A DNA stretch of 64,000 nucleotides, taken from NCBI RefSeq assembly GCF_013426915.1, contig NZ_AP023181.1, forward strand, positions 434,001-498,000, in the 5' to 3' direction. The position numbers and the translations under genes were made by a program. Source of the DNA: Paraburkholderia sp. PGU19. GTDB taxonomy: Bacteria > Pseudomonadota > Gammaproteobacteria > Burkholderiales > Burkholderiaceae. Positions 11,806-34,673 of the stretch are shown piece after piece (the stretch's first letter is position 1; each line of letters opens with the position of its first letter). The notes under the pieces are model-generated. The model saw only the letters and a list, made by a program, of their open reading frames with translations, searched no databases and was not told where the DNA came from.

Positions 11806-11809
11806 TTTG

Positions 11810-14751: not shown

Positions 14752-14755
14752 GTGT

Positions 14756-16100: not shown

Positions 16101-16141
16101 GTCAGTTCGCTCCGTCAGGCCAGGTCAATGCTGCTGCACCA

Positions 16142-16180: not shown

Positions 16181-16218
16181 CCGCCGCGCCACACGCCACG
16201 TGGCACGTGGCACGGCGG
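16181..16218 (-). terminator. Long near-perfect hairpin 10 bases after hcp
   Basis: The 38-base block is almost fully self-complementary. CCGCCG pairs with CGGCGG, and GCCAC pairs with GTGGC twice, interrupted by one C-A mismatch and one AC/AC internal loop. It begins 10 bases after the hcp stop codon. Such structures often protect the highly expressed hcp message and reduce read-through into the rest of the operon. There is no U-tract, so the termination strength is unknown. Confidence 0.6.
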
Positions 16219-16228
16219 TACGCTGCCG

Positions 16229-16723
16229 CTAGCCGTTGGTTGCGTCGTTTTTCACGATGTTCCACTTCATCTCGACGACGCCTCCTTCCTTGGCGCCCTT
16301 CGCGTTCTGCGGCTGATACTCGACGTGGAACTGCTCGAAGTTCAGTGTCACGTTCTCGGTGAAGCGATCCTCACCACCCGAGCCGCCTGTCGAATACGAA
16401 CTGATCAGGCATGCCGTCAGCGTGACCTTGTAGTACTCGAGCGGATTGTCACCCCCGGCCTTGCGCACCGTCAGAATGCACGAGTCGATATGCTTGCCCT
16501 GGGCGCAGGCGAGCATGATCGTCGGCGTCGACTTGTCGACGTACTTGGTGAACGAAATGTCCTGTACGTTCACCTTGCCCGCGCCGCCACCTGTTCCCAT
16601 GTGCATCGTGCCGCTTTGGCTCAACCCCCAGCTCCACGCGAGCACATCGATCTCTTCCTTATGGGACTTGTCCTGAGATTCGCCCTTGATGTCACCAATC
16701 TTAATGAACATATCGACGGCCAT
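16229..16723 (-). CDS. hcp: T6SS tube protein Hcp (TssD)
   Basis: Hcp hexamers stack into the inner T6SS tube and carry small effectors. The 164-residue product has the family start MAVDMFIKIGDIKGES and HKEEIDVLAWSWGLSQSG, and later VTLTACLISSYSTGGSGGEDRFTENVTL in sense, typical of the Hcp1 type. I chose the ATG at 16723 because GGAG lies just upstream; a GTG 12 bases earlier would bury that site. It follows tssC by 44 bases and is followed by two hairpins, as expected for the most abundant product of the cluster. Confidence 0.95.
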   Translation of the reverse strand: MAVDMFIKIGDIKGESQDKSHKEEIDVLAWSWGLSQSGTMHMGTGGGAGKVNVQDISFTKYVDKSTPTIMLACAQGKHIDSCILTVRKAGGDNPLEYYKVTLTACLISSYSTGGSGGEDRFTENVTLNFEQFHVEYQPQNAKGAKEGGVVEMKWNIVKNDATNG

Positions 16724-16767
16724 GTTCTTCTCCACTCAAACGGTTCACCACTCACAATGGAATTCCG

Positions 16768-18264: not shown

Positions 18265-18290
18265 GGTCTGACTCCACTGTTAGGTCGCGC

Positions 18291-18791
18291 TTATTCCTGT
18301 GGCTTCGGCGCGGATGCGAGCGATTGCAGCAAAGCCGGGTCGTTCAGCACCTTTGCGATCAATTCCTCGGCGCCCGTCTTGCCGTCCATGTAAGTCAAGA
18401 GGTTCTGCAACTGGCCGCGTGCCTCCAGCAGCTTCGACAGCGCATCGACCTTGCGGGCGACTGCGGCAGGCGAGAAGTCGTCCATGCTCTCGAAGGTCAT
18501 GTCGACGGCAAGATTGCCTTCGCCCGTCAACATGTTCGGCACCTGGACCGCGACGCGCGGCTTCATCGACTTCAGGCGTTCATCGAAGTTGTCGACGTCG
18601 ATTTCCAGAAACTTGCGGTCCGCAACGGGCGCGAGCGGGTCCGCCGGCTGTCCGGAGAGATCGGCCATCACGCCCATCACGAAGGGCAGATTCACCTTCT
18701 TCTCCGAGCCGTACACCTCGACGTCATACTCGATCTGCACGCGCGGCGCGCGATTGCGTGCTATGAATTTCTGACTGCTTTCCTTGGCCAC
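18291..18791 (-). CDS. tssB: T6SS sheath small subunit TssB
   Basis: TssB (VipA) pairs with TssC in the contractile sheath and carries the N-terminal helix recognised by ClpV in many systems. The 166-residue product begins MAKESSQKFIARNRAPRVQI. It includes LPFVMGVMADLSGQ and FLEIDVDNFDERLKSM, both family hallmarks. The stop is 79 bases before the tssA frame ends upstream, and tssC follows closely. Confidence 0.96.
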   Translation of the reverse strand: MAKESSQKFIARNRAPRVQIEYDVEVYGSEKKVNLPFVMGVMADLSGQPADPLAPVADRKFLEIDVDNFDERLKSMKPRVAVQVPNMLTGEGNLAVDMTFESMDDFSPAAVARKVDALSKLLEARGQLQNLLTYMDGKTGAEELIAKVLNDPALLQSLASAPKPQE

Positions 18792-18870
18792 GACAGTTCC
18801 CCTGGTTGACGCCGCACCGTCGACAGGCGGAGCAGCGTATCAGTTACGATGCTGATGAACTCCCCGACGA

Positions 18871-19905
18871 CTATTCTTCGATACCGCCAACCTGCCGGGC
18901 CTGACCGAGACCTTCCGGCGCGAGGTCCTGCAATATTTCGATGAAGCTCTTGTCCACCAGACGGCGCGCCCGTGTCAGCAACAACGGCACCGGACTCGAC
19001 GGCTCGTGCTGTTCGTAATAGGCGCAGATCTTGTCCAGCAGGCGGATGACGTCCTGCCGGCTATTGACTTCTCCACTGGGCGCCGCGCGCATGACCCCGC
19101 CCGGGCTGACGGTTGCGTCATCCCCTCCCTCGCCGACAGATGCTTCGCCCGCTGTCTGCTGATCAGCGTCGCTAACCCGCGCGCCAAGGAAGCCGGCCGC
19201 CTGTTGCAACAGACGCGACAGTGGCGACAGGTCGATCGCCTGGGCCGCGCCGACGCGCTCCGTCAACAGCGTTTCAATCCGGGTGTTGCTTTGGCGCGCT
19301 GAGAGCAACGCGGCGTGCGTAGCCGCCGCTTCGTCTCGCACGTCGGCGATGGCCGCGTCGATCGAGGCGAGCGATGGCGGTTCGACGCCCTCGGGTACGG
19401 GCGTGTCGCCCGTCGCATATTCGATATCGCGCAGCCTGACGATTCCGTGCGTGCGCGACGCGGCAAGCGCTGTGTCGCGCACATCCAGCAACATCCCCGA
19501 CTGTTCGACAAGCACGGCGAGCGCATTGATGCGCGCGGTCGGATCGTTATCGTCGTCGGGGTCGAGTTGCGGGTAGACGTGATCCCAATGCCGCTCGAGC
19601 AGGCCTTCGATCAACGCCATTCCTTCGGCGAGACCGGTGAAGCCCTGGCGGTTCAGGAGCGCGCGTGCAAGATGCGCGGCGACGCGCAGGTCGCGACTTT
19701 TGTTGAACAGTTCGAGCGCAAGGGCCTGGGCTGCTTTCCAGTCAGGCGGTGTGGCGGCGACGACGGTGTCGCCATACTGGACTTCCGGTTTGCCGTGCAC
19801 GACCTGTTCGAGTTCGAGAAACATCGGGTCGTATTCGACATCGTCCCCGCAGGGACTGTCAGGCGATATTTCGGCGAGCAGTACCCCGGCATCGAGCGTG
19901 GCCAT
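18871..19905 (-). CDS. tssA: T6SS assembly protein TssA (ImpA N-terminal family)
   Basis: TssA primes and caps the growing sheath/tube. The 344-residue product has the ImpA N-terminal domain (LLAEISPDSPCGDDVEYDPMFLELEQ in sense, then PDWKAAQALALELFNKSRDLRVAAHLARALL). Its C-terminal half ends in the usual KICAYYEQHEPSSPVPLLLTRARRLV. This makes it a short TssA without the long C-terminal VasJ extension. It is the first gene of the minus-strand operon, next to the divergent 670-base gap. Confidence 0.93.
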   Translation of the reverse strand: MATLDAGVLLAEISPDSPCGDDVEYDPMFLELEQVVHGKPEVQYGDTVVAATPPDWKAAQALALELFNKSRDLRVAAHLARALLNRQGFTGLAEGMALIEGLLERHWDHVYPQLDPDDDNDPTARINALAVLVEQSGMLLDVRDTALAASRTHGIVRLRDIEYATGDTPVPEGVEPPSLASIDAAIADVRDEAAATHAALLSARQSNTRIETLLTERVGAAQAIDLSPLSRLLQQAAGFLGARVSDADQQTAGEASVGEGGDDATVSPGGVMRAAPSGEVNSRQDVIRLLDKICAYYEQHEPSSPVPLLLTRARRLVDKSFIEILQDLAPEGLGQARQVGGIEE

Positions 19906-20575: not shown

Positions 20576-21403
20576 GTGACACACATTGAAAGCGCACGGT
20601 CGGCCGATAGCGTCTGCGACAGTGCGTTGTCGGACCTGTGGCAGAGGCGCACCTGTCTGAATCAGGACGAGATGGCATCGATCTATACGGTCGTGCGCCG
20701 CGCATTGCAGGGGTATCACCCGTTCGAGTTGCAGGCGCTAGGTGAAGACAAGGAAGAACTCATTTCCCAGTTCATCTACTTCAAGGTCTTCCGGCTCGAA
20801 GCCGCGCACGCGCACCCGGAAGCCTTCCCACTGCATAGCGCGCCATCGAACGGTCATGCGGTGTGCGCGTACTTTCGCCGCTATCTGATCGACTGCCTGC
20901 GCAATGCCGGCCATCAACGCAACGTGTCGTTCGACGATGACGACGTGCTAGCCGAGGTCGAGCAGCAAGCGGCCGTGCAAAGCGATCCTGTCGGCTCGGT
21001 GCTGGCCCAGTACGGTCTGGACGAGCGAACCGTGCGGGAATCGGCAGCGCGCTTCATCGCGGGGATCGATGAGTCCGACCAGTTGCTGCTGGCGGGCAGT
21101 CTGGGCTGGCTGTCGAATGAAAAGGGCGGGCTGTCGCGGATCGCCGCACGCTACCGGATCGCGTCGTATCACTATCGCGCCCGCAAGCTCGGCGTGACGC
21201 TGAAAAAAAGCGCCCTGCCCGCCGATTTCGCGGCGACCAGCATCGGCGAGTGGATCAAGCACACGCTCGGCATCGACATCGCCACGGAGAATCGCGTCGC
21301 GATCCTGTTCGTTCTTGGCATCCTCTCCGAACAGTCGCGCGCCCCGGCAGTTGAACCCGATCCGAGCAGAGGTTTCCTGTGCAGCTTGCCACAGCAAGCC
21401 TGA
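20576..21403 (+). CDS. Sigma-70-like protein of unrecognised family, linked to T6SS/PP2C
   Basis: The 275-residue product has the outline of a small sigma factor but no clear family match. A region-2-like helix block lies at about residues 55-110 (ELISQFIYFKVFRLEAAH, AYFRRYLIDCLRNAG). A region-4-like helix-turn-helix follows at about 165-205 (IDESDQLLLAGSLGWLS, LSRIAARYRIASYHYRARKLG). An extra C-terminal segment of about 60 residues (SIGEWIKHTLGIDIATENR) is unlike ordinary ECF factors. I used the GTG at 20576 because GGGG lies 7 bases upstream; the overlapping ATG at 20574 runs straight into a stop. The end overlaps the PP2C start. It diverges from tssA, so a role in T6SS transcription is plausible but inferred. 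Confidence 0.65.
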   Translation: MTHIESARSADSVCDSALSDLWQRRTCLNQDEMASIYTVVRRALQGYHPFELQALGEDKEELISQFIYFKVFRLEAAHAHPEAFPLHSAPSNGHAVCAYFRRYLIDCLRNAGHQRNVSFDDDDVLAEVEQQAAVQSDPVGSVLAQYGLDERTVRESAARFIAGIDESDQLLLAGSLGWLSNEKGGLSRIAARYRIASYHYRARKLGVTLKKSALPADFAATSIGEWIKHTLGIDIATENRVAILFVLGILSEQSRAPAVEPDPSRGFLCSLPQQA

Positions 21404-22173
21404 GCGACCCAGGCGGCCGCAAGCGCAACGAGGACGCGCTGGGTGACTGGTCGAGCGAGCGCCTTTACTATTGCGTGCTCGCCGACGGTGCGGGCGGACA
21501 CGGCGGCGGCGATACGGCATCGGCGATCGTCGTCAATAGCGTGCTGGCGGATCTGCGCTACCTGACGGTCGCCGAGTTGCCGCCGACGGGCCAACGCCTC
21601 GTCAAAGCGATCGGCCACGCGAACGCGAACATCCTGGAAGAACAGGCACGCGGCGATGCCGCGCTGAAAGACATGCGCTCGACGGTCGTGCTGCTTGCGA
21701 TCGACTGCGAACTGCGCACGGCAGCGTGGGCGCACTGCGGCGATTCGCGGCTGTACTGTTTTCGCGGCGGGCAGGTCAGTGTGCAAACACGCGACCATAG
21801 CCTCGTTCAGGATATGATCGACGCGGGCCTGATCACGCCTGAGCAGGCGCGCCATCATCCGCGCCGCAACGTGCTGCTCGCCGCGCTCGGCACAGCTGGC
21901 GAGCTGGATATCGTTGGCTTCGATGGCACGTTCAACCTGCTCGATCGCGATGCTTTCCTGATTTGCAGCGATGGGCTGTGGGAGTACGTCGACGAGACTT
22001 ATATGAGCGAGACGCTTGGCGAAGCCGCGACCCCCGACGCATGGCTCGGCGCGCTCGCTGCGCGCGTGCGCGAGATCGCGCCCGCCAGCCACGATAACTT
22101 CAGCGCACTGGCCGTGTGGATCGTCGATCCGGAAGACACCCAGGCCACGGTGCTGCAGGTGGCGCCTTCATGA
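21379..22173 (+). CDS. PP2C-type serine/threonine phosphatase (PppA-like)
   Basis: PP2C enzymes remove phosphate from Ser/Thr using two metal ions. The 264-residue protein has the expected aspartates in RNEDA, LADGAGGHGGGD, AHCGDSRLY, CSDGLWEYV and HDNFSALAVW. It has no membrane segment, so it should be cytoplasmic. Its start overlaps the end of the sigma-like gene by 25 bases. In T6SS the PppA phosphatase opposes a PpkA kinase on the FHA protein; this enzyme is placed to do so with the kinase at 30718 and FHA gene at 4876. The start codon could alternatively be a few codons downstream. Confidence 0.88.
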   Translation: MQLATASLSDPGGRKRNEDALGDWSSERLYYCVLADGAGGHGGGDTASAIVVNSVLADLRYLTVAELPPTGQRLVKAIGHANANILEEQARGDAALKDMRSTVVLLAIDCELRTAAWAHCGDSRLYCFRGGQVSVQTRDHSLVQDMIDAGLITPEQARHHPRRNVLLAALGTAGELDIVGFDGTFNLLDRDAFLICSDGLWEYVDETYMSETLGEAATPDAWLGALAARVREIAPASHDNFSALAVWIVDPEDTQATVLQVAPS

Positions 22174-22206: not shown

Positions 22207-25200
22207 CTAGAAGTCCCCGCATCCATGTTGACCATTCAGCAACATGCAACTGTTCAGATTGGGTTGCGATCGCACGCGCTTCCATTCGACTGCGAGGATG
22301 TCCTGATTGTCCCCCGGCGGCGCGGTGGTGAACAGCGGCTGATTCGAACCGATACAGATGTTGGTGCCCTGCAGGTTGTTCTCGTAGACGAAGGTTTGCT
22401 CCTGGTTGCTGAAGAACTGCTGCAAGCCCGCTTGCGAAACGGGATCGATCAACTGCGTGACCGTCAGCACGCCCGGCACCTCGATCACGATATAGCCGAC
22501 GTTCGACCCGAAGTTTGAAAGGATCGGATACTTCCCAGGCGGTGAACTCTGGTTGGCGGGCGACGTTAGCGTGCCCGTCAGCGCGCCGGCGGCGGTGTCG
22601 CCGTTGATCAGGCCGCTGGTGGTAAACGTGAACACGGGGTTGGGTGCGCCAGCAATACGCGTCTTGCCATCGGCTGTCACCGTCACGGTTGGCCTTGCGA
22701 TATAGACGTAATGATTACCCGTGGTCGGCACCGTGCCGCCCCAACTGCAACCAGCACCGAATGTGCAGCCATAGAAATTGGGCTGCGCGGTATTGGGCTG
22801 AACGTTGCCGCGCGTCTCGCCCACCCATGTGCTCGCCCAGATCCGCCAGCCGTTGCCGGCAACGATCGTGCCGGAACCCGCCGCGTTGAACACGCCGCTT
22901 TCCATGACCAGATCGATCGTGCCGCCCGCACTCAGGCTGGTGCTCGGACCGCCCAGCCCGATATTGCCCGTCGTGGCCTGAGCGATGAGGTTGCCCGTCA
23001 ACGTTGAGTTGGTGCCATCGAGCGTGGTCAACTGGCTCGTACTGGAATTGAATGTCTGGCTGACCACCGGACCGATGACGAAGCCGTGCGAGTTCGTGAA
23101 GTACACGTTGCCGGCGTTGACCATCGCCAGCACGCCGACGTCGTTTTGCGGATCGGTCAGCGTGAAGGTGCCGGGCCCCGAAAGCAGCAGGCTCGCTGCC
23201 TGAATGCCGCCCGGGTCGGTAACCGGACCGCCGGAAGCGAGCGTCAACGTGTGGCCGGGGATCGAGATGCCAAATGGAAGCGTGATGCCCTGGCTGCCCG
23301 ACCCCGGATTGGACAGCGTCAGATTGTTCGCGAGGCCCGGCCGTGTCAGCACGCAGACCGCGCTGTCCGATGCGCACACGCCGTTTACCGTGATGAGCCC
23401 CGTGTGCGTGGTCGAACCCAGCACGATGTTCGGGATCGAAACGAACGTCGAAAACGTCGCCGCGTCGATGCTCAGGCCACCTGTGCCGAATAGCGTAATC
23501 GGTGTCGCGTTCTGCGCGATGATCGCGAAGGTGTTCGGATCGACCGTCGCGGGCATGATCGACAACGTGCCGCCGGGCGACGACAACGTCGAGTTACTGA
23601 TGAACAGACTGCTGGTCGTGCCGTCATTCGACGCGCGCAAGACGATGGAGCCTGGCTGGGCCGTCGAGACCGTGGGGTCGGCCAGCAGCGCGGCGCCGAC
23701 GATCGGCGTGCCGCCGCCCGAGAACGGCGGCACGCCGATCGCGAGGCCAGGGTCGGCCGTGTTGGTCGAACCGGCGATCTGGATCGTGCCCGTTTGCCCC
23801 GTTGCCTTGATGTCGCCATTGGCGATCAGCACGCCGGCATCGCCCTGCAGGTTCGGGCTGCTGCCGCCCGTCGGTCCGCTCACGGTGCCGCGAATATCAA
23901 TGAGACCGCCATTGTTCGAAACGATCTGCGTTCCGTCAGTGATCTGCACGCCATTGGCCAACGGACCCGTGCCGTTGCCGTAGATGCTCAACGTGCCGCT
24001 GCCCGTCGTGACGGACGAGGCCGCACCCGGCGTGCACTCGCAAATGCTGTTTTCGAGAATAACGCCAAGTACCGACGCATTGGACGGGACCCCGACAGTT
24101 TGCCCGATCAACTGGATATTGCCGCTCGTCGACTGGACCGACGCACTGTGCAGATCGAGCGCGAAGCTGTTGTTGAGCGACGACGATACCGTGCCCGTGA
24201 TGCCGATATTGCCGCCGCTCGTGCTCACGTTCGCGTTGAATAACTGAACGCCGTCGACAAAAGTCACGGTGCCGCCCGAGACACTGCCGGAGAGGTTGAT
24301 CGCACCTGTCGTGTTCGTCACGGACGTGCCCGACACCGAAAGCCCGAACAACCCGTTCGCAGTTGCGTTGCCAGTAATGGCAATCGCGCCGCCTGAACTG
24401 CTGACGGCGGGGCCGGCAACGGTACCGCCGACGGGCGTGAAGCCGCCCGAGATACTGACGCCCGTGCCTTCCTCGCCGGGCGTGGTCCCAACGATGTTGA
24501 TACCGCCCGTCGAGGTATTGAGCGAGCTGTTAAAGAGGCTGACGCCGGTGCTGAGTCCGATGCCGTTGGTGCTGCCCGTTAGCGTCATCGTGCCGGCACC
24601 GCCGGTGAGCAGACTGTTAGTAATACCGACGCCAACGCCTTCCGCCAATGTCGTCGTGCCGGTGAGCGTGAGTGCGCCGCCGCCAGTATCGACCGTCGAG
24701 TTGTTGATGGTGACCGGGCTCGACCCGGCCGCATTGACCGTGAAGCTGCCGCCATGGGTCGTCACCGTCGTATTGCTGATCGCGACGGAACTGAAGGCAT
24801 TCGCTCCGCCCACGTTCCCATTGAGCGCGATACTGAGCGGCCCCAAGGTCGACATGATGGGTTGGCCAGTGTCGACGATCGAACCGAGCGCGGTCAGCGT
24901 CAGGGTTGGGATGGTGGTCGGATTTGCCGGTGTGGCCGCGACGATCGGCGCCTGAATGTTGATGTCACCCAGTGAAAAGTTGGTGGGTGTCGAGCCGACT
25001 GTCGTGATCGTCACGGAGACGCCCTGATTCAGCTGGTTGGTGATGAGGGAATTGACCACCTCGCTGTCCGTGCCCGCCGGCGTAAAAATGGCCGGCGATC
25101 CATTGGCCGGCGGCGTCTCGGTCGCCGGTGTTCCCGATGCCGCCGCCACGATGGCGATATTGTCGGGATCGATCTTCCACGCCCCGCCTTTCCCCTTTGG

Positions 25201-26436
25201 TGCCGAAGCGTCGATGGTCGCGCTCGTGACATCGAGATAGTGACCCGATGTTTCGATCAAGCCACCATTGCCGCCCTGCGCCCCGCCCCTCGCAGAAAGC
25301 GTGCCGTAGATCCGGCTCGCCGTTTCACTGAACGCCACCACATTTCCGCCAGGTCCATTGATCAGCGCATCGGCATGAATGCTTGCCGTTGGCGACATCC
25401 ACAGGGCGTTGGCATTACGAATGCTCGGGTCCTGTCCGGCGGCACCGCCGCCAACGCGCACCGTGCCGCCGCCCGCCGCACCGCTCGCATCGACTCGCGC
25501 GCCGTCCACGAGCGCAAGGTTGTAGCCTGTCACATCGATCCGGCCACCCGTCAGGCCCGCGCCGCCCGTTGCATCGAGCGTGCCGCCGACCGAAGCGACA
25601 CCGCTCGTGCCACCATCGAGCACGATGTGCCCATTGCGCTCGGCGACGCTTTGCGCACGGATGATTCCCTGCTGGTTGATCACGGTGCCCGCCAGCGCAT
25701 CGGCCGTCTGCGCGCTCATCACTACCGTCCCGCCATCGGCGGCGAGCGTGCCCGTGTTGCCGATCAGCGCATGGGCCGCCCCCTGGTTTATTTTCAGCGT
25801 GGTCAGCCCGTCGCCCGCGAAGTCCAGCGTGATGTCGTTTCCCGCGCCGATGGCAACCGTACCGAGGCGCGCGCTCACCATACCCGAATTGCTCACGCTG
25901 CCGCCAAGCAGCGCGATCGTGCCACCCGTGCCGGCCGTCAGCGTCCCGGCGTTGCTGACGGGCGCGACGGACGTGCCGACGAAGCGATAGTTGCCAGCGA
26001 GAAAATCAGCGTTCGAAATATTCAGCGTCGACGCGATCATCGAGCCGACATTCACCGATGAACCGGGAGCGAAGATCACGCCCGCCGGGTTGACGAGAAA
26101 CACTTTGCCATTGGCCTGAAGCCGCCCTGCAATCACGCTCGGATCATTGCCCATCACGCGGTTGAGCAGCGCCGCACTGGCCGACGGCTGCGCAATCGTC
26201 ACGCCTTCGTTCGCGCCGATCGAGAAGGTGTTCCAGTTGACGATCGCCTTGGGCGTCTTCTGCGTGATATTCATCTGCCCGGCAGCGGGCGTATTGACGC
26301 TCACCGTACCCGACACCACCTGCGCACCCGTCGGATTTGCAAGCAGCGACGACATGTAGGACCCGGCAAGCAGCGTAGCCGCCGCACAGACGATCGTGCC
26401 GGCAACCCGCAACGGCACGCTGCATGGTTTGTTCAT
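22207..26436 (-). CDS. TpsA: two-partner-secreted filamentous haemagglutinin-like exoprotein
   Basis: The 1409-residue protein is the cargo of a two-partner (type Vb) secretion system. A signal peptide spans about residues 1-34 and ends near SSLLA. The haemagglutination-activity (TPS) domain follows, with IVNWNTFSIG, NRVMGNDPSVIAGRLQANGK and the NPNG-like NPAGVIFAPG. The middle about 900 residues are Gly/Ser/Thr-rich and repeat phrases such as SSGGAIAITG, a beta-helix pattern. Near residues 1240-1325 lies an MBG-like domain (AGAPNPVFTFTTSGLINGD, then GVLTVTQ). The C-terminus holds three cysteines, including C-x8-C near the end. The gene is last in a CHAT-tpsB-tpsA operon. An adhesin or contact factor is the likeliest role; no toxin domain is visible. 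Confidence 0.85.
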   Translation of the reverse strand: MNKPCSVPLRVAGTIVCAAATLLAGSYMSSLLANPTGAQVVSGTVSVNTPAAGQMNITQKTPKAIVNWNTFSIGANEGVTIAQPSASAALLNRVMGNDPSVIAGRLQANGKVFLVNPAGVIFAPGSSVNVGSMIASTLNISNADFLAGNYRFVGTSVAPVSNAGTLTAGTGGTIALLGGSVSNSGMVSARLGTVAIGAGNDITLDFAGDGLTTLKINQGAAHALIGNTGTLAADGGTVVMSAQTADALAGTVINQQGIIRAQSVAERNGHIVLDGGTSGVASVGGTLDATGGAGLTGGRIDVTGYNLALVDGARVDASGAAGGGTVRVGGGAAGQDPSIRNANALWMSPTASIHADALINGPGGNVVAFSETASRIYGTLSARGGAQGGNGGLIETSGHYLDVTSATIDASAPKGKGGAWKIDPDNIAIVAAASGTPATETPPANGSPAIFTPAGTDSEVVNSLITNQLNQGVSVTITTVGSTPTNFSLGDINIQAPIVAATPANPTTIPTLTLTALGSIVDTGQPIMSTLGPLSIALNGNVGGANAFSSVAISNTTVTTHGGSFTVNAAGSSPVTINNSTVDTGGGALTLTGTTTLAEGVGVGITNSLLTGGAGTMTLTGSTNGIGLSTGVSLFNSSLNTSTGGINIVGTTPGEEGTGVSISGGFTPVGGTVAGPAVSSSGGAIAITGNATANGLFGLSVSGTSVTNTTGAINLSGSVSGGTVTFVDGVQLFNANVSTSGGNIGITGTVSSSLNNSFALDLHSASVQSTSGNIQLIGQTVGVPSNASVLGVILENSICECTPGAASSVTTGSGTLSIYGNGTGPLANGVQITDGTQIVSNNGGLIDIRGTVSGPTGGSSPNLQGDAGVLIANGDIKATGQTGTIQIAGSTNTADPGLAIGVPPFSGGGTPIVGAALLADPTVSTAQPGSIVLRASNDGTTSSLFISNSTLSSPGGTLSIMPATVDPNTFAIIAQNATPITLFGTGGLSIDAATFSTFVSIPNIVLGSTTHTGLITVNGVCASDSAVCVLTRPGLANNLTLSNPGSGSQGITLPFGISIPGHTLTLASGGPVTDPGGIQAASLLLSGPGTFTLTDPQNDVGVLAMVNAGNVYFTNSHGFVIGPVVSQTFNSSTSQLTTLDGTNSTLTGNLIAQATTGNIGLGGPSTSLSAGGTIDLVMESGVFNAAGSGTIVAGNGWRIWASTWVGETRGNVQPNTAQPNFYGCTFGAGCSWGGTVPTTGNHYVYIARPTVTVTADGKTRIAGAPNPVFTFTTSGLINGDTAAGALTGTLTSPANQSSPPGKYPILSNFGSNVGYIVIEVPGVLTVTQLIDPVSQAGLQQFFSNQEQTFVYENNLQGTNICIGSNQPLFTTAPPGDNQDILAVEWKRVRSQPNLNSCMLLNGQHGCGDF

Positions 26437-26449
26437 GGCAAACCTCCGC

Positions 26450-26466
26450 GCCGGGCAAAGCCCGGC
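26450..26466 (-). promoter_or_regulatory. Hairpin just upstream of the tpsA Shine-Dalgarno
   Basis: GCCGGGC and GCCCGGC pair perfectly around a three-base loop. On the minus-strand mRNA this sits 2-3 bases before the GGAGG that serves tpsA (start 26436). It may end a short tpsB message, protect tpsA mRNA or tune ribosome access. The role is inferred. Confidence 0.45.
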
Positions 26467-26558
26467 TCAACCACCACTCAGCCATCCCGCTTGCGCCACC
26501 CTTGCCGCTTGCGCAACGTCTGCGAACTGAAGCAGGAAGTCGGGCGTCTTCAGAACAA

Positions 26559-28235
26559 CTAGAACGTCTTGGTCAACTGCACATAAAAACGCGGCACCTT
26601 GTCGTCGCCGGTGGTGTCCGAGCCCGTCGTGCGCCAGGCAACCGTGCCTTGCAGCGCGATCCCACCCGGCGCCACCCAGTACGCGCCAAAGCCGACGCCG
26701 CTGCGCGTGATCATGTTCGGCCCCTGTTCCGGCCGCGAGTTGGCGTTGTACCAGCCAGTACCGAAGTCGAAGAAGCCGAACACCGTCGCCTTCGCATTGA
26801 TCGCGTAGCGTCCTTCGACCGTTGCAACAAAGCCCTCGTCGACGAGCCCTTCAGACGGCGAGTAGGCGCGCACCGCATGCGGCCCGCCCAGCAGGAAGCG
26901 CGACGAGTTGTCGAGGGTCGTGCCGGCCCACTGGCCGGATATGCCGGCAAACATGCTGAAGCGCTCCGTCACCGAATTCAGGCGGTTCGCGAAGAACGTC
27001 GCGCGCACTTCGGTGCCATGCGTGTTGCGCCCAAACGCGGACGCATCGAGTTCCTCGGCCGCCGCATTCCTGAAATGCAGGCTGCCGATCAGGAACTCCA
27101 CGTCCGCGCTATTGAAGCCGCCGCCCAGCAGCGCGTCGCGGCTTTCATAGCTGAGACCGACGCTCCCCTCGACCAGCGAGCGCGGATTGTGCAGGTCCAC
27201 CACGCCGATGTTGTCAATGAGATCACGATACTCGAGGTTTGCGCGGGCCAGCAGGTTCTGGTTGCGGGTACGCAGCAGCGGATGCGTCACCGTCAGATCG
27301 ACGACGGTCGCCTCGCCCTGCGCATCGAGCGACGCGAAATCCTTGCCGAGCGCATAGTTGAGCCGCGACAGCGCGACACCCACGCGCGTGCCATATGCAT
27401 TCACGGGCGCCTCGTAGCCGATGCGGCCATACACGGTATCGAGCCGCTCGCTGGCCAGAATCCGCAAGTCGAGGTTGTCGCCGATCATGAACGGCGAGTT
27501 GAGCCGCGCCAGCGCGCCCAGACGCCAGGTGCCGCTCGAAGGCGCGCCGTAGTTGTCGAGGTCGACGGCAAAGGTCCAGCGTTTGGCGGGCGCGACGCTG
27601 ATCGTCAGATCGACCGTGCCCGGCTCGTCGCCCGTTTCGATTGCCGAGGTCACGACGATGCCGGGCAGGTCCGACAGCAGCAGCATCGTGCGCTCGAGAT
27701 CGTGCTGCTGCAGCGGCTGGCCGGTCGGAATCTGCGCGACGCGTGCGCGCAGCAGGTCTTCGCGGATCGGCGTGCCCGCCGCGACATCGAGCCGCACATG
27801 GCCGAGACGTCCTTCGAGCACGGTGAATTCGACCGTGCCCGCGCTCACGTCCTGCTGCGGAATCACCACCTGGGCGAGCAGATAGCCACGCGCGCGATAG
27901 ACCTGCGTCACCTTGGCGGCAATCGTTTCGAGATCCGCAAATCCGATCGGCTTGCCGATCTGGTCGCGCACGGGCGCAAGCAGCTCGTCGGACGGAATGG
28001 TGTCGTTGCCCTTGAACGTGATGCCCTTGAGCACGAACGTCGGACCGGGCGCCGTGACGGGCGGTGCGCCCGCCTGCGGTACGGCCGGTAGGGCTTGCGC
28101 ACCACCCGGCGGCGCCGGGCGCGTGTCGCGCGGCGCGGTTTGCTGAAGGATGCTGCCGGCATTCGGCAGCGTCTGGCCCCACGCGATCGTCCCGCTGCAG
28201 GCCATCGCTGCCGCAATCAGTCGGAGTTTTTTCAT
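26559..28235 (-). CDS. TpsB: two-partner secretion outer-membrane transporter (ShlB/FhaC family)
   Basis: TpsB is an Omp85-superfamily 16-strand barrel that exports its TpsA partner. The 558-residue protein has a signal peptide (about 1-20, ending AWGQ). POTRA domains are visible as FVLKGITFKGNDTIP, YRARGYLLAQVVIPQQDV and the second-POTRA start IREDLLRARVAQI. The barrel begins near residue 235 and ends with the aromatic FYVQLTKTF. The conserved lid-loop motif appears as VRAYSPSEG instead of the usual VRGY/F; the changed Gly is unusual. It lies 8 bases from the CHAT gene and 122 bases before tpsA, so one operon is likely. Confidence 0.92.
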   Translation of the reverse strand: MKKLRLIAAAMACSGTIAWGQTLPNAGSILQQTAPRDTRPAPPGGAQALPAVPQAGAPPVTAPGPTFVLKGITFKGNDTIPSDELLAPVRDQIGKPIGFADLETIAAKVTQVYRARGYLLAQVVIPQQDVSAGTVEFTVLEGRLGHVRLDVAAGTPIREDLLRARVAQIPTGQPLQQHDLERTMLLLSDLPGIVVTSAIETGDEPGTVDLTISVAPAKRWTFAVDLDNYGAPSSGTWRLGALARLNSPFMIGDNLDLRILASERLDTVYGRIGYEAPVNAYGTRVGVALSRLNYALGKDFASLDAQGEATVVDLTVTHPLLRTRNQNLLARANLEYRDLIDNIGVVDLHNPRSLVEGSVGLSYESRDALLGGGFNSADVEFLIGSLHFRNAAAEELDASAFGRNTHGTEVRATFFANRLNSVTERFSMFAGISGQWAGTTLDNSSRFLLGGPHAVRAYSPSEGLVDEGFVATVEGRYAINAKATVFGFFDFGTGWYNANSRPEQGPNMITRSGVGFGAYWVAPGGIALQGTVAWRTTGSDTTGDDKVPRFYVQLTKTF

Positions 28236-28243
28236 TGTTCTTC

Positions 28244-30493
28244 TTAGCGCGCAATGCTCAGGCGCCAGCCTCCCATCAGGTCGAATGGTGCCCAGAAGAA
28301 CGGATGTGCGAATCGTGAGTTCTGCATCACTGCGAGTTGCGCGGTCCGCATCGCGTCGATGGCTTCATGGCCGTCGGCGAGCTGCGCGTAAAACGTGCGC
28401 ATGGTCAACGCGCTTGATTCGTCGGCCACCGGCCACATCGACACGATCAGGCTCGTCGCGCCCGCATAGAAGAAGGCGCGCGTGAAGCCGAGAATCTCGT
28501 CGCCGCGCGCGATCCGCCCAAGCCCCGTCTCGCACGCCGACAGCGTGACGAGCGACACGTTGTTCAGCTTCAGGTTGTAGATGTCTTTCGCGAGCAGCGA
28601 GTCGGGGCCGTCAGCAGGCTGCGTCGCGGGCGCGAGCAGGATGCGCGAATGCAATGGATCGATCGTGTCGGCCTCCGCGTGGGTGGCGACATGCAGCACC
28701 CGGCCCGTAGGCGCATTCTCGCGAAAGCTCACACGCGTCGCGCTGGATTGCAGAAACACTTCCTGGCGCGCAAACAGCGGCGCGATGCCGCGCACCTCCG
28801 CCTCGGCGCCGGGCAGCGCATAAGCGGGTGCGATCGTCGGATTGCCGAATGCGACGAGATTGCTCGCCACCTTCAGCTCGCGCGTGGCGAGCTGCACCGC
28901 GACGCTCGCCGAAGGCTCCAGCGCGATCGCGTGGCGCTGGATCAGGAAACCATCCGGGCCGTGCAACGCCTGGAACGGCAGATAGTGCAGCGCGCCGTGC
29001 GGGACGATGATCAGCCGGTCGTCGGCGCGCAATCCGAGTGGCGCGATCAGCAGCGCGTAGAGCTTGTCGCCATAGGTGATCGCGGTTGGCCGGCGGCGCA
29101 CGATTGCGTTACGGAAATCGGTGACGGCGGCGTCCATGTCGGCGCGCGCGATGGGGAGCGTATAACCCTTCAGCCCTTCGTTGCGGATCACCCACACGAT
29201 GATCGATTTCTCGAGGTTGTGATATTCGACGAGCGTCTCGTTTGGCTTCAGTGCGTTGCGCACCACGTCGAGACCCGGCACATCGCCGTTCAGTTGACGG
29301 TCGTTCACACCGGCATCGACGCGATTGCGCACGACGTCGAGCAGCGCACGCGCGCGGCTGCGTTCGGACAGATTCCACGCCGAGGCATAGTCGCCCACTT
29401 CGACCGTCAGCGTGATCGCCATTTCGAACACGGACTGCGTATCGCCGAAGAGGCCCGTCTTGAACTCTTCGCTGCGAAAGCGCGCGCGGATCTTCTCCGA
29501 ATCGTCCACGGCCTGCAGATAGGCTTCGCGCGCCCTCGCCCGCTGGCCAAGCGCAAGGTCGGCACGGCCGATGCCTTCGTGCGCCCACAGGCGGTCGTAG
29601 TTCGCGTCGCTGCCGCCGCTTTCCGACAGCAGCGTGGTGAACGCGAGCAGCGCTTCCTGGGGCTTGCCTTCGGCGAGCAGCAGGTTGCCTTCGATGCGGC
29701 GGTACTCCGGCGCGAGGTCCGCGCTCGGCGCGGGACTGGCGGCGTTGAAAGTCTTGCGCGCGCCGGCCGTGTCGCCCGCGGCGATCTGCGCGTTCGTGAT
29801 CGACAGCAGCACCAGCGGACGGTAGCGCGGCGACGCCGTTTCGAGCGCGCGGTTGTAGGCGTCGATTGCGTCTTGCGGATGGCCGCGGCGCAGCGCGATG
29901 TCGCCGAGCACCTTGTTGGCGGGCGCAAACACCTGTTCGGGCGCTTTCGGGGTCGAGGCCAGCGCTTCCTGTGCGTATTTCTCGGCGTCGTCGAGATCGC
30001 CGGCGTAGCTGTACGCGATCGCGAGGTCACGCTTCGACAGCGCGGCCAGATCGGCATTGTCGGTACGCTGCGCCATCACCAGCGCGCGGGCGGCCGCCTC
30101 GACGCTGTCGCGGAAGTCGCCGCGCTCGGCCGCCGATACGGCCATGCTGCAATAGTCGTACGCGGGCAGCGTGACGCGATCACGCGAGAGCAGCAGACGC
30201 CCTTCGGAAGTCAACGACTGCAGCGTTTCGGCATCGCGTTCGCGTTCGCTCGCCTGTCGAAAGCCTTGAGATTCGGGCGCGAGGCCCGGCGCGGGGCCGG
30301 TGGCAGGTGCGGCTGGCGCGGCCGCGAACGCGCCGCCCCATACGCCTGAAGTTGCACAGACGACGAGCGCAGCGATGCCCATCATGCGTGACCCGGCATG
30401 CGCCCTGACACGCAAGCGCGTAGTGCCGCTTTGCACTGCACGCCTCGCGATGCGCGCTACGCAGGACATCGGGTTTCTTATGAGTTCGTTCAC
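28244..30493 (-). CDS. Exported TPR-CHAT caspase-like cysteine protease
   Basis: CHAT domains are caspase-like (clan CD) peptidases. The 749-residue protein opens with a long n-region and a hydrophobic export signal (MMGIAALVVCATSGVWGGAFA near residues 37-58 in sense), so it is probably periplasmic. TPR-like helix pairs fill about 100-350 (YSYAGDLDDAEKYAQEAL, NKVLGDIALRRGHPQDAIDAYNRAL). The CHAT domain fills about 440-745, with the predicted catalytic His at 605 (LHVATHAEAD) and Cys at 654 (LSACETGLG). Both are present, so it should be active. The GTG start at 30493 has AGGAAG upstream. It leads the operon with tpsB and tpsA, suggesting it acts on the secreted protein or its transporter. Confidence 0.9.
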   Translation of the reverse strand: MNELIRNPMSCVARIARRAVQSGTTRLRVRAHAGSRMMGIAALVVCATSGVWGGAFAAAPAAPATGPAPGLAPESQGFRQASERERDAETLQSLTSEGRLLLSRDRVTLPAYDYCSMAVSAAERGDFRDSVEAAARALVMAQRTDNADLAALSKRDLAIAYSYAGDLDDAEKYAQEALASTPKAPEQVFAPANKVLGDIALRRGHPQDAIDAYNRALETASPRYRPLVLLSITNAQIAAGDTAGARKTFNAASPAPSADLAPEYRRIEGNLLLAEGKPQEALLAFTTLLSESGGSDANYDRLWAHEGIGRADLALGQRARAREAYLQAVDDSEKIRARFRSEEFKTGLFGDTQSVFEMAITLTVEVGDYASAWNLSERSRARALLDVVRNRVDAGVNDRQLNGDVPGLDVVRNALKPNETLVEYHNLEKSIIVWVIRNEGLKGYTLPIARADMDAAVTDFRNAIVRRRPTAITYGDKLYALLIAPLGLRADDRLIIVPHGALHYLPFQALHGPDGFLIQRHAIALEPSASVAVQLATRELKVASNLVAFGNPTIAPAYALPGAEAEVRGIAPLFARQEVFLQSSATRVSFRENAPTGRVLHVATHAEADTIDPLHSRILLAPATQPADGPDSLLAKDIYNLKLNNVSLVTLSACETGLGRIARGDEILGFTRAFFYAGATSLIVSMWPVADESSALTMRTFYAQLADGHEAIDAMRTAQLAVMQNSRFAHPFFWAPFDLMGGWRLSIAR

Positions 30494-30717
30494 ATCGTCT
30501 TCCTGCTGGAAGGTCCATGGACGCGACCGGAGAGCCGTTGTGACTGCGAGGGTGTGCGGGCCAGAGCGAGCGCCGCCAGAAATGCCTGCAACTCTTTCTA
30601 AAGAAACGATTGTGTACGCGCATTTTGAAAACGGCCGGGGACGCGGGAGGCCGTCGCTTCAAAAATGGCCGCGTGATTCGTCTTGTTGATACACGCACGT
30701 GCGCGTGGGGATGGCGC

Positions 30718-32817
30718 ATGCTCGTTCGCAGCGCCGCGCGACTGGACTTTCCTGTGAATCCCGTCCCGATGAACAGCCCCGATGACAAGACGGTAATCGT
30801 GCCACACCCACCCGAGCCCGACAGCCAGCCGGTGGGCGTCGATCCAGCGGGCTCGGATAGCTCGGATAGCGCGACCATCGTGCCGCCGGCGGCCGTCGCA
30901 GGCGTAGAGTCGCATCACGCGCTGTCGGTCGGCATGCGGGTCGCGGAGTTCGAAATCAAGGGCTTGATCGGTGAAGGCGGCTTTGGCATTGTCTATCTCG
31001 CGCACGACACCCAATTGGGCCGCAACGTCGCGCTCAAGGAATACATGCCAGCCTCACTGGCTTCGCGCGGCAGCAACGCGGAAGTCACGGTGCGCTCCGA
31101 GCGCCACAAGGAAACGTTTCTCGCGGGCCTGAAAAGCTTCGTCAATGAAGCGCGCCTGCTCGCGCAGTTCGATCATCATTCGCTCGTCAAGGTCTACCGG
31201 TTCTGGGAAGCGAACAGCACCGCCTACATGGTGATGCCGTACTACGATGGCGTCACGCTGCGCGACGCGCTGCGAGCGAAGAATGCGCCGCCCGACGAAG
31301 CGTGGCTGCGCGCGCTACTGACGTCGCTCGTCAGCGCACTCGACGTGATGCACCGCGCGCAGTGCTACCACCGCGACATCGCGCCGGACAATATCCTGCT
31401 GCTGAAGGACAGCGGCCGTCCGCTGCTGCTCGACTTCGGCGCGGCGCGGCGCGTGATCGGCGATATGACACAGGCGCTGACTGTCATCCTCAAGCCCGGC
31501 TATGCCCCCGTCGAACAGTATGCGGAAGTCCCGTCGCTGAAACAGGGGCCGTGGACCGACATCTATGCGCTTGCCGCGGTCGTCTACTTCGCGATCGTCG
31601 GCAAGACGCCGCCGCCCTCGGTAGGCCGGATGATGAGTGACAGTTACGTGCCGCTCGCGATGCAAGCGTCAGGCCGTTATTCGCCCGCCTTCCTGCGTGC
31701 TATCGATCACGCGCTCGCCGTGCGGCCCGATGAGCGGCCGCAGAGCATGCAGGCGTTCGCGGCGGAGTTAGGCCTTGCATTGAGCGCTCAGGACGGAACC
31801 CATGACGAGCCCGCCGCGTTGTCTTCACCGCGTACGGCAGCGCCTGCCGCGAGCAGTAGCGTGCCGGCCCGCGAGGCGAGCGACGCGCTGCGACCGGGCA
31901 CGGCAAGCCGTGACAACCTGGGGGCTTCCCCTCCTGGTGCCACGGCGGCGGGCGCGTCGCGCACGACAAGCCGGCGCTCCACGGCAATAGCGGTTGGCGC
32001 CGTCGTCGTCGTCGGGCTGGCGGGGCTTGGAGGCTGGTTCGCGATGCGGCCCTCGACGAAAACCGCACCGCCCGTCGTCGCCGTTACAGCCAGCGACCAT
32101 CCGGCGGCGTCGGAAGCGCAACACGCGCAGACCGTGCCCCCGCCCGCTCCGTCCACGCCACAGGTTGCGGGCAACGCCATGCAAACGCCGTCGGCGAGCG
32201 GGCCTGCAAGCGCCCCCGTCAGCACTGCCGCGAATACGGCGGCAAATACGACCGCGAACTCGATACCAGACATCACACCCGCGCTGCCGCCTTACACGCC
32301 CGGTGGCGAACTCGACCGGATCGTCTCCCTTGCCGACCCGTCGATCAGCGTCAAGGCCCTCTCGCGTATCACCACCGCGCGGATCAGCAAGGATCATCTG
32401 CAATTCAGCGTCGGCAGCAATCGCGCGGGCTACGTGTACGTCTTCATGGTCGATCCCGCCGGGCAATATCTGATGCTGTTTCCGAACGGGCTCGACAAGA
32501 ACAATGCGATCGCCGCCGGCCAGACCCTTTCGTTGCCGCGCGCAAGCTGGCCAATGATGGCGGGCGCGCCGGCTGGCCCGAACCACTTTCTCGTACTGGT
32601 CTCATCCGCGCCGCGCGACTTTTCAGACGGCGGGCTGCATGGCGAATCGGTGTTCGCGGATTTTCCTGAAGACGCGCAACGCGCCGCCGCGATACGCCGC
32701 ACGGTCAGCTATTCGCCGTTCGCCGGCAAGCCGCGCTGTGCAACTGGCGCGTCCCGCTGCCCGGATACGTTCGGCGCAGCGACTTTCACGATCGACGTCG
32801 TCGGGTCGCCGACGTAG
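30718..32817 (+). CDS. Membrane serine/threonine kinase with C-terminal DUF4384 domain
   Basis: The 699-residue protein has a Pro/Asp-rich leader (about 1-75) and a Hanks-type kinase domain (about 80-350). All key motifs are present: glycine loop GEGGFGIVYLA, VALKEYM lysine, HRDIAPDN catalytic loop and DFGAAR. A disordered Ala/Ser/Pro linker and one membrane segment (about 420-442, AIAVGAVVVVGLAGLGGWFAM in sense) follow. A periplasmic DUF4384 domain (about 530-690) contains YVYVFMVDPAGQYLMLFPN. DUF4384 is often joined to kinases or caspase-like proteins at the cell surface. The ATG at 30718 was chosen because GGGGA lies 8 bases upstream; an ATG at 30769 is possible. It diverges from the CHAT operon and precedes an MltA-like gene. 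Likely the PpkA-like partner of the PP2C and FHA proteins. Confidence 0.88.
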   Translation: MLVRSAARLDFPVNPVPMNSPDDKTVIVPHPPEPDSQPVGVDPAGSDSSDSATIVPPAAVAGVESHHALSVGMRVAEFEIKGLIGEGGFGIVYLAHDTQLGRNVALKEYMPASLASRGSNAEVTVRSERHKETFLAGLKSFVNEARLLAQFDHHSLVKVYRFWEANSTAYMVMPYYDGVTLRDALRAKNAPPDEAWLRALLTSLVSALDVMHRAQCYHRDIAPDNILLLKDSGRPLLLDFGAARRVIGDMTQALTVILKPGYAPVEQYAEVPSLKQGPWTDIYALAAVVYFAIVGKTPPPSVGRMMSDSYVPLAMQASGRYSPAFLRAIDHALAVRPDERPQSMQAFAAELGLALSAQDGTHDEPAALSSPRTAAPAASSSVPAREASDALRPGTASRDNLGASPPGATAAGASRTTSRRSTAIAVGAVVVVGLAGLGGWFAMRPSTKTAPPVVAVTASDHPAASEAQHAQTVPPPAPSTPQVAGNAMQTPSASGPASAPVSTAANTAANTTANSIPDITPALPPYTPGGELDRIVSLADPSISVKALSRITTARISKDHLQFSVGSNRAGYVYVFMVDPAGQYLMLFPNGLDKNNAIAAGQTLSLPRASWPMMAGAPAGPNHFLVLVSSAPRDFSDGGLHGESVFADFPEDAQRAAAIRRTVSYSPFAGKPRCATGASRCPDTFGAATFTIDVVGSPT

Positions 32818-32858
32818 CGGACAAGGTGGACGTCCACGCATGGGGCGCAGGAGGCGGC

Positions 32859-34673
32859 ATGCACAACGTACGTTGGATGCTCTGTGTGGTTGCGGCGCTC
32901 GTGGGTTGTGCTGGCAATCAGCCCGCCTCGACGACGACCTTTGGACCGGCGGGCACGCCGTCACCCCAACCTGCGGCGCAAGAGTCTTCACAGATGCCGT
33001 CGCCCGCACCTGCGGCGCCGCTTCCGTCCATGCAATCGCAAGCGGCACCCGTCACGCCCGCGACGGTGGCGACCACGCCCGCCGCACCTGCGACATCCGC
33101 CGCCGCGTCCGCGCCGGTTGCAAACGCGAGCGGCAGCATCGCCTTCTCCACCCGTCACGCATACTACGCATCGGCCCGCTTCGCTGATCTGCCCGGTTGG
33201 AACACCGACGACCTCAGTAGCTCATGGGACGCTTTCAAACGCAGCTGTGCGGTACTCGGCTCGCGTGCCGGCTGGTCGGAGCCGTGCGCGGCGTCACGCT
33301 CGGTCGATGCGCGCAACGTCGCCGCGATCCGTCAGTTCTTCGAGACGTATTTCAATGCGTACCAGATCCGCAATGCCGACAAGAGCGGCGACGGCACGCT
33401 GACCGGCTACTACGAGCCCCTGCTGAATGGCAGCCGGCAGTACGGCGGCGCCTTTCTCTACCCGGTCTACGGCACGCCCGACGATATGCTGTATCTCGAT
33501 GCCCGTCGCCTGCCGGACAGCGCACGCGGCACGGCGAGCACCGCGCGCATCGATGGCCGCATGGTCATCCCCGTCACCGGCATCACGCCGGGGAGCACCA
33601 AGGGCGTCTACGTGCTCGATCTGCGCGACAGTGTTCCCGACATACGCGACAAGAAGATCCGTCTGCGGCTCGATCATGATCGCATCGTGCCGTACTACAC
33701 GCGTGCCGAGATCGAGCGCGGTGCGCTCAAGGCGCCGATTCTCGCTTACGTCGACGATCCCGTGATGCTGTACTCGATGCAGGTGCAAGGAGCAGGCAAG
33801 GTGCGCATGAGCGACGGCACGGTGCGCCGCTTCGCTTACGCGGAGCAGAACGGCCGCCCGTTCCTGCCGCCCGTTGCGCGCGCGAACGCCGGCAGCGGGC
33901 AGCGGATCACCGTGCGTGGCATCGACGTCGAAATAGACGTCGAGGACGAGTCGGCGACGGGCGGCGCCGGCAACGCTAGCGCACCGACGCCTGGCGATGC
34001 GACGGGCGGCGTGCCTGCCACCCGCACGCAGGACGATGACGAACCGGTGTCGCCGCTGCTGCGCGGTTTCAAGCTGGCGGCAGCGACACCACAAGGATCG
34101 GCGCCCGCCGTGCGTCCCGCTGCCAGCGACAACACGGCAGGCGGGATGTCGAAAGGCTCCGTTGCTTCGAAGACGGGCGACGCCGCCACGGGCGCATCGA
34201 CGAACAATGCCCCCGTCAAGCGCGTGTTCGCCATCTCGGACCCGAGCTACGTGTTCTTCCGGCTGATTCCCGATTCGCCGAATGGGCCCGTCGGCGCACT
34301 GGGTGTCGCGTTGTCGGCGGGCCGCTCCATCGCCGTCGATCCGCGCACGACGCCGCTCGGCGCGCCGGTGTTCCTCTCGACGCGCGACGATCCGCAAGCG
34401 CCCGGCGCCATCGACCGCCTGATGATGGCGCAGGACTCAGGCGGTGCCATTCAGGGTGCAGTGAGAGCGGACTATTTTTATGGCTTTGGCCAAACCGCGC
34501 AGGCGCAGGCGAGCCGGACGAAGGAACGCATACGCATGTGGGTGCTGTTGCCGAAAGGGCTGCCCATCGCCGCGCGGGACGCGACGCTGAAAACGCGGGG
34601 CGGCGGCGCGGCGGCGTCGAGTGCCGATTGCCTTGTCAGCGATCCCGAGTTGTGCGTCGACGATACGCCTTGA
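32859..34673 (+). CDS. mltA: MltA-type lytic transglycosylase lipoprotein with 3D domain and large insert
   Basis: MltA cleaves peptidoglycan glycan strands to 1,6-anhydro products from the outer membrane. I start at the ATG at 32859 because AGGAGG lies 4 bases upstream and the next residues give a lipoprotein signal with lipobox ALVGC (Cys about 17). An Ala/Pro/Thr-rich stretch follows to about residue 100. The MltA domain (about 175-370) contains LTGYYEPLLNGS and VMLYSMQVQGAGKV. A low-complexity insert (about 375-450) precedes the 3D domain with the catalytic Asp in MAQDSGGAIQGAVRADYF. At 604 residues it is far longer than ordinary MltA (about 370). It is 41 bases from the kinase gene; wall remodelling for a secretion machine is an attractive inference. 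Confidence 0.9.
   Translation: MHNVRWMLCVVAALVGCAGNQPASTTTFGPAGTPSPQPAAQESSQMPSPAPAAPLPSMQSQAAPVTPATVATTPAAPATSAAASAPVANASGSIAFSTRHAYYASARFADLPGWNTDDLSSSWDAFKRSCAVLGSRAGWSEPCAASRSVDARNVAAIRQFFETYFNAYQIRNADKSGDGTLTGYYEPLLNGSRQYGGAFLYPVYGTPDDMLYLDARRLPDSARGTASTARIDGRMVIPVTGITPGSTKGVYVLDLRDSVPDIRDKKIRLRLDHDRIVPYYTRAEIERGALKAPILAYVDDPVMLYSMQVQGAGKVRMSDGTVRRFAYAEQNGRPFLPPVARANAGSGQRITVRGIDVEIDVEDESATGGAGNASAPTPGDATGGVPATRTQDDDEPVSPLLRGFKLAAATPQGSAPAVRPAASDNTAGGMSKGSVASKTGDAATGASTNNAPVKRVFAISDPSYVFFRLIPDSPNGPVGALGVALSAGRSIAVDPRTTPLGAPVFLSTRDDPQAPGAIDRLMMAQDSGGAIQGAVRADYFYGFGQTAQAQASRTKERIRMWVLLPKGLPIAARDATLKTRGGGAAASSADCLVSDPELCVDDTP

Follow-up and report, generated by a model that had tools for sequence, protein, structure and literature searches.

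Why should a gene for a caspase-like protease of the CHAT family, apparently exported from the cytoplasm, lie beside a two-partner secretion (TPS) pair and next to a type VI secretion system (T6SS)? The question is raised by a 64-kb stretch of Paraburkholderia sp. PGU19 (contig NZ_AP023181.1, positions 434,001 to 498,000; hereafter the window), which belongs to a genome of 11.2 Mb. The CHAT gene, the transporter gene tpsB and the exoprotein gene tpsA, referred to here as the trio, form a module that is conserved and linked to the T6SS, in a neighbourhood that recurs far beyond chance. As an explanation we tentatively propose, at a rough probability of 0.48, that CHAT, TpsB and TpsA are a surface arm of the T6SS in which CHAT acts on the C-terminal tail of TpsA and a Ser/Thr kinase reads the state of the arm. 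The parts are known and their combination is new. No paper describing a CHAT-TPS-T6SS unit was found in the literature searched, and the terms CHAT, filamentous and kinase do not occur in PMC8356804 or PMC10434147, whose T6SS types were not compared with that of the window.

Conservation and linkage to the T6SS

The sample of this genus of soil bacteria comprised 144 genomes, the window's own included, with cut-offs of E 1e-50 for CHAT and E 1e-240 for TssC. Distances were taken from the end of one match to the end of the other, and for fetched loci the start codon used is that of the longest open reading frame (ORF). CHAT was present at E 1e-50 or better in 29 of the 144 genomes. In all 29, a TpsB match shared the strand of the CHAT match at a distance of 11–152 bp, and TssC lay 8.1–23.3 kb from CHAT, also on its strand. 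A relative of the sigma-like protein described below was on the CHAT contig, 6.3–20.0 kb away, in 28 of these 29. A scan of assembled genome contigs yielded 25 loci, every one with CHAT, TpsB and TpsA in order on one strand and with a kinase relative inside the fetched flank; the three ORFs likewise share a strand in 26/26 of the loci L021-L046. Viewed from the T6SS, 24 loci in 23 genomes have a TssC of at least 90% identity; 23 of these loci carry CHAT, and the remaining one is a decayed duplicate in genome G006. These results ruled out the trio as a mere local oddity, and the conserved neighbourhood that the initial annotation had asked for is present in all 29 CHAT-positive genus genomes (TpsB and T6SS) and all 25 contig-scan loci (trio). 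On plasmids of cyanobacteria (three loci) and of Azospirillum (one locus), CHAT has no annotated TPS gene beside it. The decayed copy in G006 (G006:C30; L053 and L054) retains remnants of the TpsA tail, the kinase and CHAT.

Two arrangements were seen. Clade A has the gene order of the window. Clade B, which includes the genus genomes G064, G086, G090, G107, G121 and G139 as well as Caballeronia, has the trio inside the T6SS: two annotated Caballeronia plasmid records place tssJ and tssK on one side of the trio and tssA on the other, with the TpsA gene ending 11 or 13 bp before tssA. In one of these records tssB and tssC are directly next, in the other they follow after six further genes.

Gene layout of the window

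All coordinates are positions in the window, and ORF strands and gaps were checked against the ORF list. From left to right the order is T6SS (minus strand), sigma-like protein and PP2C (plus), TpsA, TpsB and CHAT (minus), kinase and MltA (plus).

1..19905, minus strand: T6SS core cluster by profile matches, from TssM (which extends beyond the window) to TssA (18871-19905)
4876-6666, minus strand: FHA protein within the T6SS cluster, by profile matches
20576..21403, plus strand: sigma-like protein, overlapping the PP2C gene by 25 bp; weak NCBIfam sigma-factor match
21379..22173, plus strand: PP2C Ser/Thr phosphatase, PppA-like (PP2C_2 PF13672, 52.6 bits)
22207..26436, minus strand: TpsA exoprotein, 1409 aa (TPS PF05860, 108.9 bits; MBG_2 PF18676; TIGR01901)
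25603..26334, minus strand: TPS secretion domain of TpsA, residues 35-278 (Pfam)
22462..22686, minus strand: MBG_2 domain of TpsA, residues 1251-1325 (Pfam)
22210..22407, minus strand: C-terminal tail of TpsA, residues 1344-1409, with three Cys and an invariant EWKRVR (alignments of 27 and 20 sequences)
26559..28235, minus strand: TpsB outer-membrane transporter (POTRA_2 and ShlB, Pfam)
28244..30493, minus strand: TPR-CHAT protease, apparently exported (CHAT 220 bits, and TPRs); GTG start, the true start may be further in
28271..29074, minus strand: CHAT domain, residues 474-741, with His605 and Cys654 (Pfam, alignment)
30610..32817, plus strand: PpkA-type Ser/Thr kinase (Pkinase, 103.5 bits); start probably near 30769, judged by eye
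32392..32610, plus strand: DUF4384 of the kinase, residues 595-667, predicted periplasmic (PF14326, 60.7 bits)
32826..34673, plus strand: MltA/3D murein transglycosylase-like protein (PF03562, PF06725) with a lipobox-like LVGC, judged by eye

The gaps are exactly 122 bp between TpsA and TpsB and 8 bp between TpsB and CHAT, and 33 bp separate the end of the TpsA gene from that of the PP2C gene, which converges on it. The initial annotation had described this minus-strand trio with ORFs, strands, gaps and coordinates that are all correct, and its flanking PP2C, Ser/Thr kinase and MltA lipoprotein, with FHA in the T6SS cluster, agree with the domain matches. Its span of 22207-34673 takes in correct genes and leaves out the sigma-like/PP2C pair and the T6SS. 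TpsA and TpsB would, judged by sequence, be a type Vb two-partner pair: TpsA, with its N-terminal TPS domain, adjoins TpsB, with its POTRA domain and ShlB barrel.

The PpkA-type kinase, PP2C and FHA of the T6SS threonine phosphorylation pathway are all in or beside the T6SS cluster. The PP2C match to NF033484 (155 bits) is under that model's cut-off of 230. The sigma-like gene is where it had been placed, and its label is weak: it has no Pfam match, and its NCBIfam sigma-factor match (E 0.004) is far under the cut-off. The window's genome holds further relatives of this gene. Around the one on contig C2, about 19 kb on either side contain nothing that matches the T6SS proteins of the window; near the one on C5 the sole such match is to DotU, at 34% and a distance of 12 kb.

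The protease and the tail of TpsA

The CHAT protein has a hydrophobic N-terminus of the signal-peptide type, as the initial annotation had said, and so do most of 29 aligned relatives (by eye and hydrophobicity). The relative P0184 clearly lacks it, and P0105 is doubtful, perhaps through start choice. The domain carries the His-Cys dyad of the CHAT family, His605 and Cys654 being invariant in 30/30 aligned sequences, and protease activity is predicted from it. The nearest named CHAT proteins are those of P. hospita and its kin. A search of PDB sequences with the CHAT profile returned TPR proteins only; CHAT relatives surfaced instead in a fold search with an AlphaFold2 (AF2) model, which matched Csx29, separase and DdvA (PDB 8rot, 8rw5). 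The modelled TPR-CHAT fold would thus be that of Csx29 (Craspase) and separase, which are cytosolic or nuclear, unlike the apparently exported protein of the window. DdvA, judged from the entry titles and the aligned range, is a transmembrane anti-sigma factor with the fold inside one membrane protein; in the window, by contrast, CHAT is a separate gene beside TPS and T6SS. The protein does not score as the Csx29 of a type III-E CRISPR Craspase (NCBIfam Csx29 model 26.4 bits, cut-off 300), and no CRISPR genes were seen among the scanned window genes.

The long TPR region and the placement of the gene beside the transporter would also suit a TPR scaffold or periplasmic chaperone for TpsA that is no working protease. 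We consider this improbable in view of the invariance of both dyad residues.

TpsA varies in length from 1244 to 2579 residues among linked loci, in longest-ORF terms, and its end is shared. The same tail of about 66 residues, with three cysteines and EWKRVR, closes 27/27 CHAT-linked TpsAs. A database search with the tail gave 58 proteins among 63 candidates, every one with a TPS and/or MBG domain. Within clade A the tail is 85% identical versus 68-71% for the preceding stretches. In the comparison between clades A and B, fourfold sites differ by 40-43%, so the constraint acts on the protein. There was no tail match, even at E 10, in two TpsAs of CHAT-less T6SSs (L071, L082). This pattern would fit a segment for partner binding or processing. 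Separase has the cleavage consensus ExxR, and we keep the invariant EWKR of the tail as a hint of such a site only; it is not shared, by eye, by the TpsA ends of L088, L089 and L095.

The initial annotation had also proposed that the protease trims or releases the exoprotein. The conserved tail and a precedent lend this some weight, while cleavage and release themselves would follow by analogy. LapG belongs to another protease family than CHAT, and we know of no T6SS link for the CdrA/CdrB-LapG system. According to a review of TPS systems, the periplasmic protease LapG cuts the periplasmic C-terminal tail of CdrA and so releases this TPS exoprotein, and the protease is under the control of cyclic di-GMP (PMC5422565). 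The likeness between the Pseudomonas aeruginosa system and the window lies in a TPS exoprotein paired with a periplasmic cysteine protease. The same review indicates that genes of maturation proteases appear not to lie within TPS operons (PMC5422565), unlike the window, where the protease gene adjoins that of TpsB. By its Pfam matches, which are limited to CHAT and TPR families, the protease does not belong to the LapG family of a LapG-type release system. In HMW1 and HxuA, also type Vb, a disulphide-bearing C-terminus is expected to remain in the periplasm and to lock TpsA in TpsB (PMC5422565). These systems have no operon protease, unlike the window, and the likeness is one of description, not of sequence comparison.

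Contact-dependent growth inhibition of the CdiA/CdiI type was rejected: the TpsA C-terminus is conserved rather than variable, it has no Pfam toxin domain, and the convergent PP2C gene lies 33 bp away. In L021 (17898-20096) and L026 (17796-19928), a family 41 TPR glycosyltransferase gene adjoins the TpsA end on the opposite strand, which recalls HMW1C modifying HMW1 (PMC5422565). An ORF for a papain-like Peptidase_C70 (L021:20002-20541) overlaps the glycosyltransferase ORF by 95 bp.

The kinase, DUF4384 and caspase-fold neighbours

The closest solved relative of the kinase is PpkA (5hnv, E 7.5e-89). A hydrophobicity scan found a single hydrophobic stretch, residues 459-477, and DUF4384 follows it and should therefore be periplasmic. 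The sensor differs in this from the known PpkA/PppA/FHA pathway, with which the window shares the PpkA-like kinase, PP2C and FHA; that pathway is not known to include a TPS-CHAT arm. The Xanthomonas PknS-EcfK system likewise combines a membrane kinase that has a periplasmic domain with a sigma factor and a T6SS, and the periplasmic part of PknS seems required for T6SS activation (PMC13147305). By analogy, a periplasmic input to the T6SS kinase is plausible. The two systems differ in that the sigma identity is weak in the window, and the term DUF4384 does not appear in PMC13147305.

An order-wide survey of 150 genomes, with a neighbourhood limit of 10 kb, placed these domains in a wider pattern; its chance figures presuppose evenly placed domains and take no account of contig ends or relatedness. 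CHAT lay within the limit of ShlB in at least 11 of 55 loci, at least 9 of them on the same strand, versus about 0.42 expected, and the window is one of them. DUF4384 lay as near to Peptidase_C14 (caspase) in 15 of 22 loci versus about 0.25 expected, and near C14 or CHAT in 16 of 22; in six of those loci DUF4384 and C14 are apparently one protein, by matching ORF lengths. A review of cyanobacterial orthocaspases also lists DUF4384 among accessory domains (PMC7475262). A TPS-domain protein was confirmed beside the CHAT-TpsB pair in L088 and L095, and a CHASE2-cyclase membrane receptor lies near CHAT in two CHAT-TpsB loci outside the T6SS, L092 and L095. The pairing of a caspase-fold protease with a neighbouring membrane receptor or caspase-associated domain thus looks like a recurring theme. 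Other families of the order, too, have CHAT close to TpsB (L088, L089, L092, L095). ShlB lies within 10 kb of DUF4384 in the order genomes G038:C1, G039:C4 and G185:C5, with C14 too in G038 and G039; these three may be a parallel with C14 in the place of CHAT.

The association of DUF4384 with C14, the CHASE2-cyclase receptors and the TPR-CHAT fold of DdvA could also be read as signs that CHAT works mainly on the kinase, cleaving or binding DUF4384 or another envelope protein with TpsA as its activator. We hold this to be rather unlikely: TpsA is favoured as the partner by its conserved tail and by what LapG does to CdrA.

T6SSs with and without CHAT

The TssC tree has 34 rows, 10 of them in A and 7 in B, and places CHAT-less clades between the two; A and B as one clade was rejected in the approximately unbiased test (p-AU 0.008), and A alone was not (p-AU 0.218). 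The CHAT-bearing T6SSs are thus not one clade, so that trio and T6SS must have been joined on more than one occasion or parted repeatedly; a double gain would fit, and so would a single gain followed by several losses. In a TpsB tree of 43 rows, A and B group together (100/100) and the CHAT-less T6SS pair falls elsewhere.

That pair belongs to a CHAT-less group (TssC about 81%) with TpsB, a TpsA of 2.7-2.9 thousand residues and a kinase before tssA (L071, L082 and, by position, two further genomes). Three of these four genomes lack CHAT at E 1e-5, and the fourth has it on a different contig. The TpsB of this group shares 34-35% identity with that of the window and clusters with a TpsB from outside T6SSs (97/93), but long branches meet there. 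We make no claim for two or more separate recruitments of TPS to these T6SSs, as one clade of T6SS-linked TpsBs was not rejected (p-AU 0.065). Seven sister T6SSs (L069-L070, L073-L074, L075, L076-L077, L080-L081, L084-L085, L086-L087) had neither TPS nor CHAT in the fetched stretches, which at the tssA end span about 5-18 kb and at the tssM end little.

These comparisons bear on two other explanations. The trio might be a passenger that was inserted by chance beside a T6SS and carried along, as its presence in only 29/144 genus genomes and its absence from sister T6SS clades would allow. We judge this very improbable given the 29/29 linkage in two arrangements, the close spacing (11-13 bp) of TpsA and tssA in Caballeronia and the rejection of a single CHAT-bearing T6SS clade. 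A more serious possibility is an adhesin system co-regulated with the T6SS, in which TpsA joins cells to let the T6SS work and CHAT is a routine maturation protease that sends no signal to the kinase. TpsA, with its MBG domain and many repeats, does look like an adhesin. A distant TPS pair occupies the same place without CHAT, so TPS may be what the T6SS recruits, and 7 of the 9 CHAT-less T6SS loci read have no TPS in the fetched stretches. Against this, a kinase relative is near CHAT in 25/25 loci, with DUF4384 in the 3/3 that were checked, and DUF4384 elsewhere tends to neighbour caspase-fold proteases.

A proposed surface arm of the T6SS

The preferred reading, a surface arm of the T6SS, places the action of CHAT on the TpsA tail because of the LapG/CdrA precedent and the position of the protease gene beside that of TpsB. 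The scheme that we infer, comprising surface anchoring, tail cleavage, the DUF4384 link and the direction of signalling, would run as follows. First, TpsB would export TpsA, whose last 66 or so residues, with their three cysteines, would stay in the periplasm and hold TpsA in or near TpsB. Second, the exported TPR-CHAT protein would recognise and cut, or clasp, this tail and so set whether TpsA is held or shed. Third, the state of the arm would reach the cytosol via the PpkA-type kinase, read by its periplasmic DUF4384. From the kinase onward, FHA and PP2C may act on T6SS assembly and the sigma-like factor possibly on expression.

This direction departs from the initial annotation, which had put CHAT under kinase and phosphatase control. 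With the kinase and phosphatase domains expected in the cytoplasm and CHAT outside it, direct control by phosphorylation is unlikely; a signal from kinase to protease would have to cross the membrane outward, and the topology speaks against it. A flow from the envelope to DUF4384, or transcriptional control, would fit better.

In a bolder form of the scheme, contact with another cell would pull on or alter TpsA, the tail would engage CHAT, CHAT would switch the kinase via DUF4384 and the T6SS would fire. We regard this trigger as unlikely.

Several points weigh against a surface arm. First, PP2C lies within the flanks in 17 of 25 loci and MltA in 18 of 25, partly as the flanks end. DUF4384 is present in 3/3 linked kinases checked (window, L078, L056), a small sample; the kinase before the CHAT-less TPS T6SS (L071) is without it. 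Second, with 122 bp between TpsB and TpsA the co-transcription of TpsA is uncertain, and a promoter scan found nothing. Third, between clades A and B the tail is 58% identical versus 51-55% for its surroundings, a slight excess that tempered an earlier claim of a hyperconserved tail. The tail alone (19 sequences modelled) gives no confident fold, the TpsAs of L071 and L082 are close relatives and count as one comparison for its absence, and CHAT-TPS pairs outside the T6SS end in other C-termini. Fourth, in the order-wide survey the CHAT-TpsB pairs of L064 and L090-L094 have no TpsA beside TpsB in the fetched stretch, and 6 of the 22 DUF4384 loci lack both C14 and CHAT within the 10-kb limit.

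Other genes in the window

The VgrG gene of the T6SS (6682-8671, minus strand) is split over three ORFs in different frames and looks broken or mis-assembled. Beyond the MltA gene, a fusion of a response regulator with a pyridine-nucleotide-disulphide oxidoreductase (36477-38138) lies between two cyclic-nucleotide-binding HATPase-bearing genes (region 35089-39706, minus strand). A FeeM-like N-acyl amino acid synthase gene lies 15 bp ahead of a 7TM-GGDEF-EAL gene (42915-46871, plus strand).

Implications

To our knowledge, contact sensing by T6SSs and the roles of CHAT proteins outside CRISPR and defence are open questions in the field. A gene set that joins an exported-looking caspase-fold protease, a TPS protein, a PpkA kinase and a T6SS core provides a concrete, testable case for both. 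A maturation protease encoded in the operon would alter the picture of TPS operons given in PMC5422565. If the trigger form of the scheme were true, the locus would encode a relay of caspase type in the periplasm that links a protein on the outer surface to a secretion machine.

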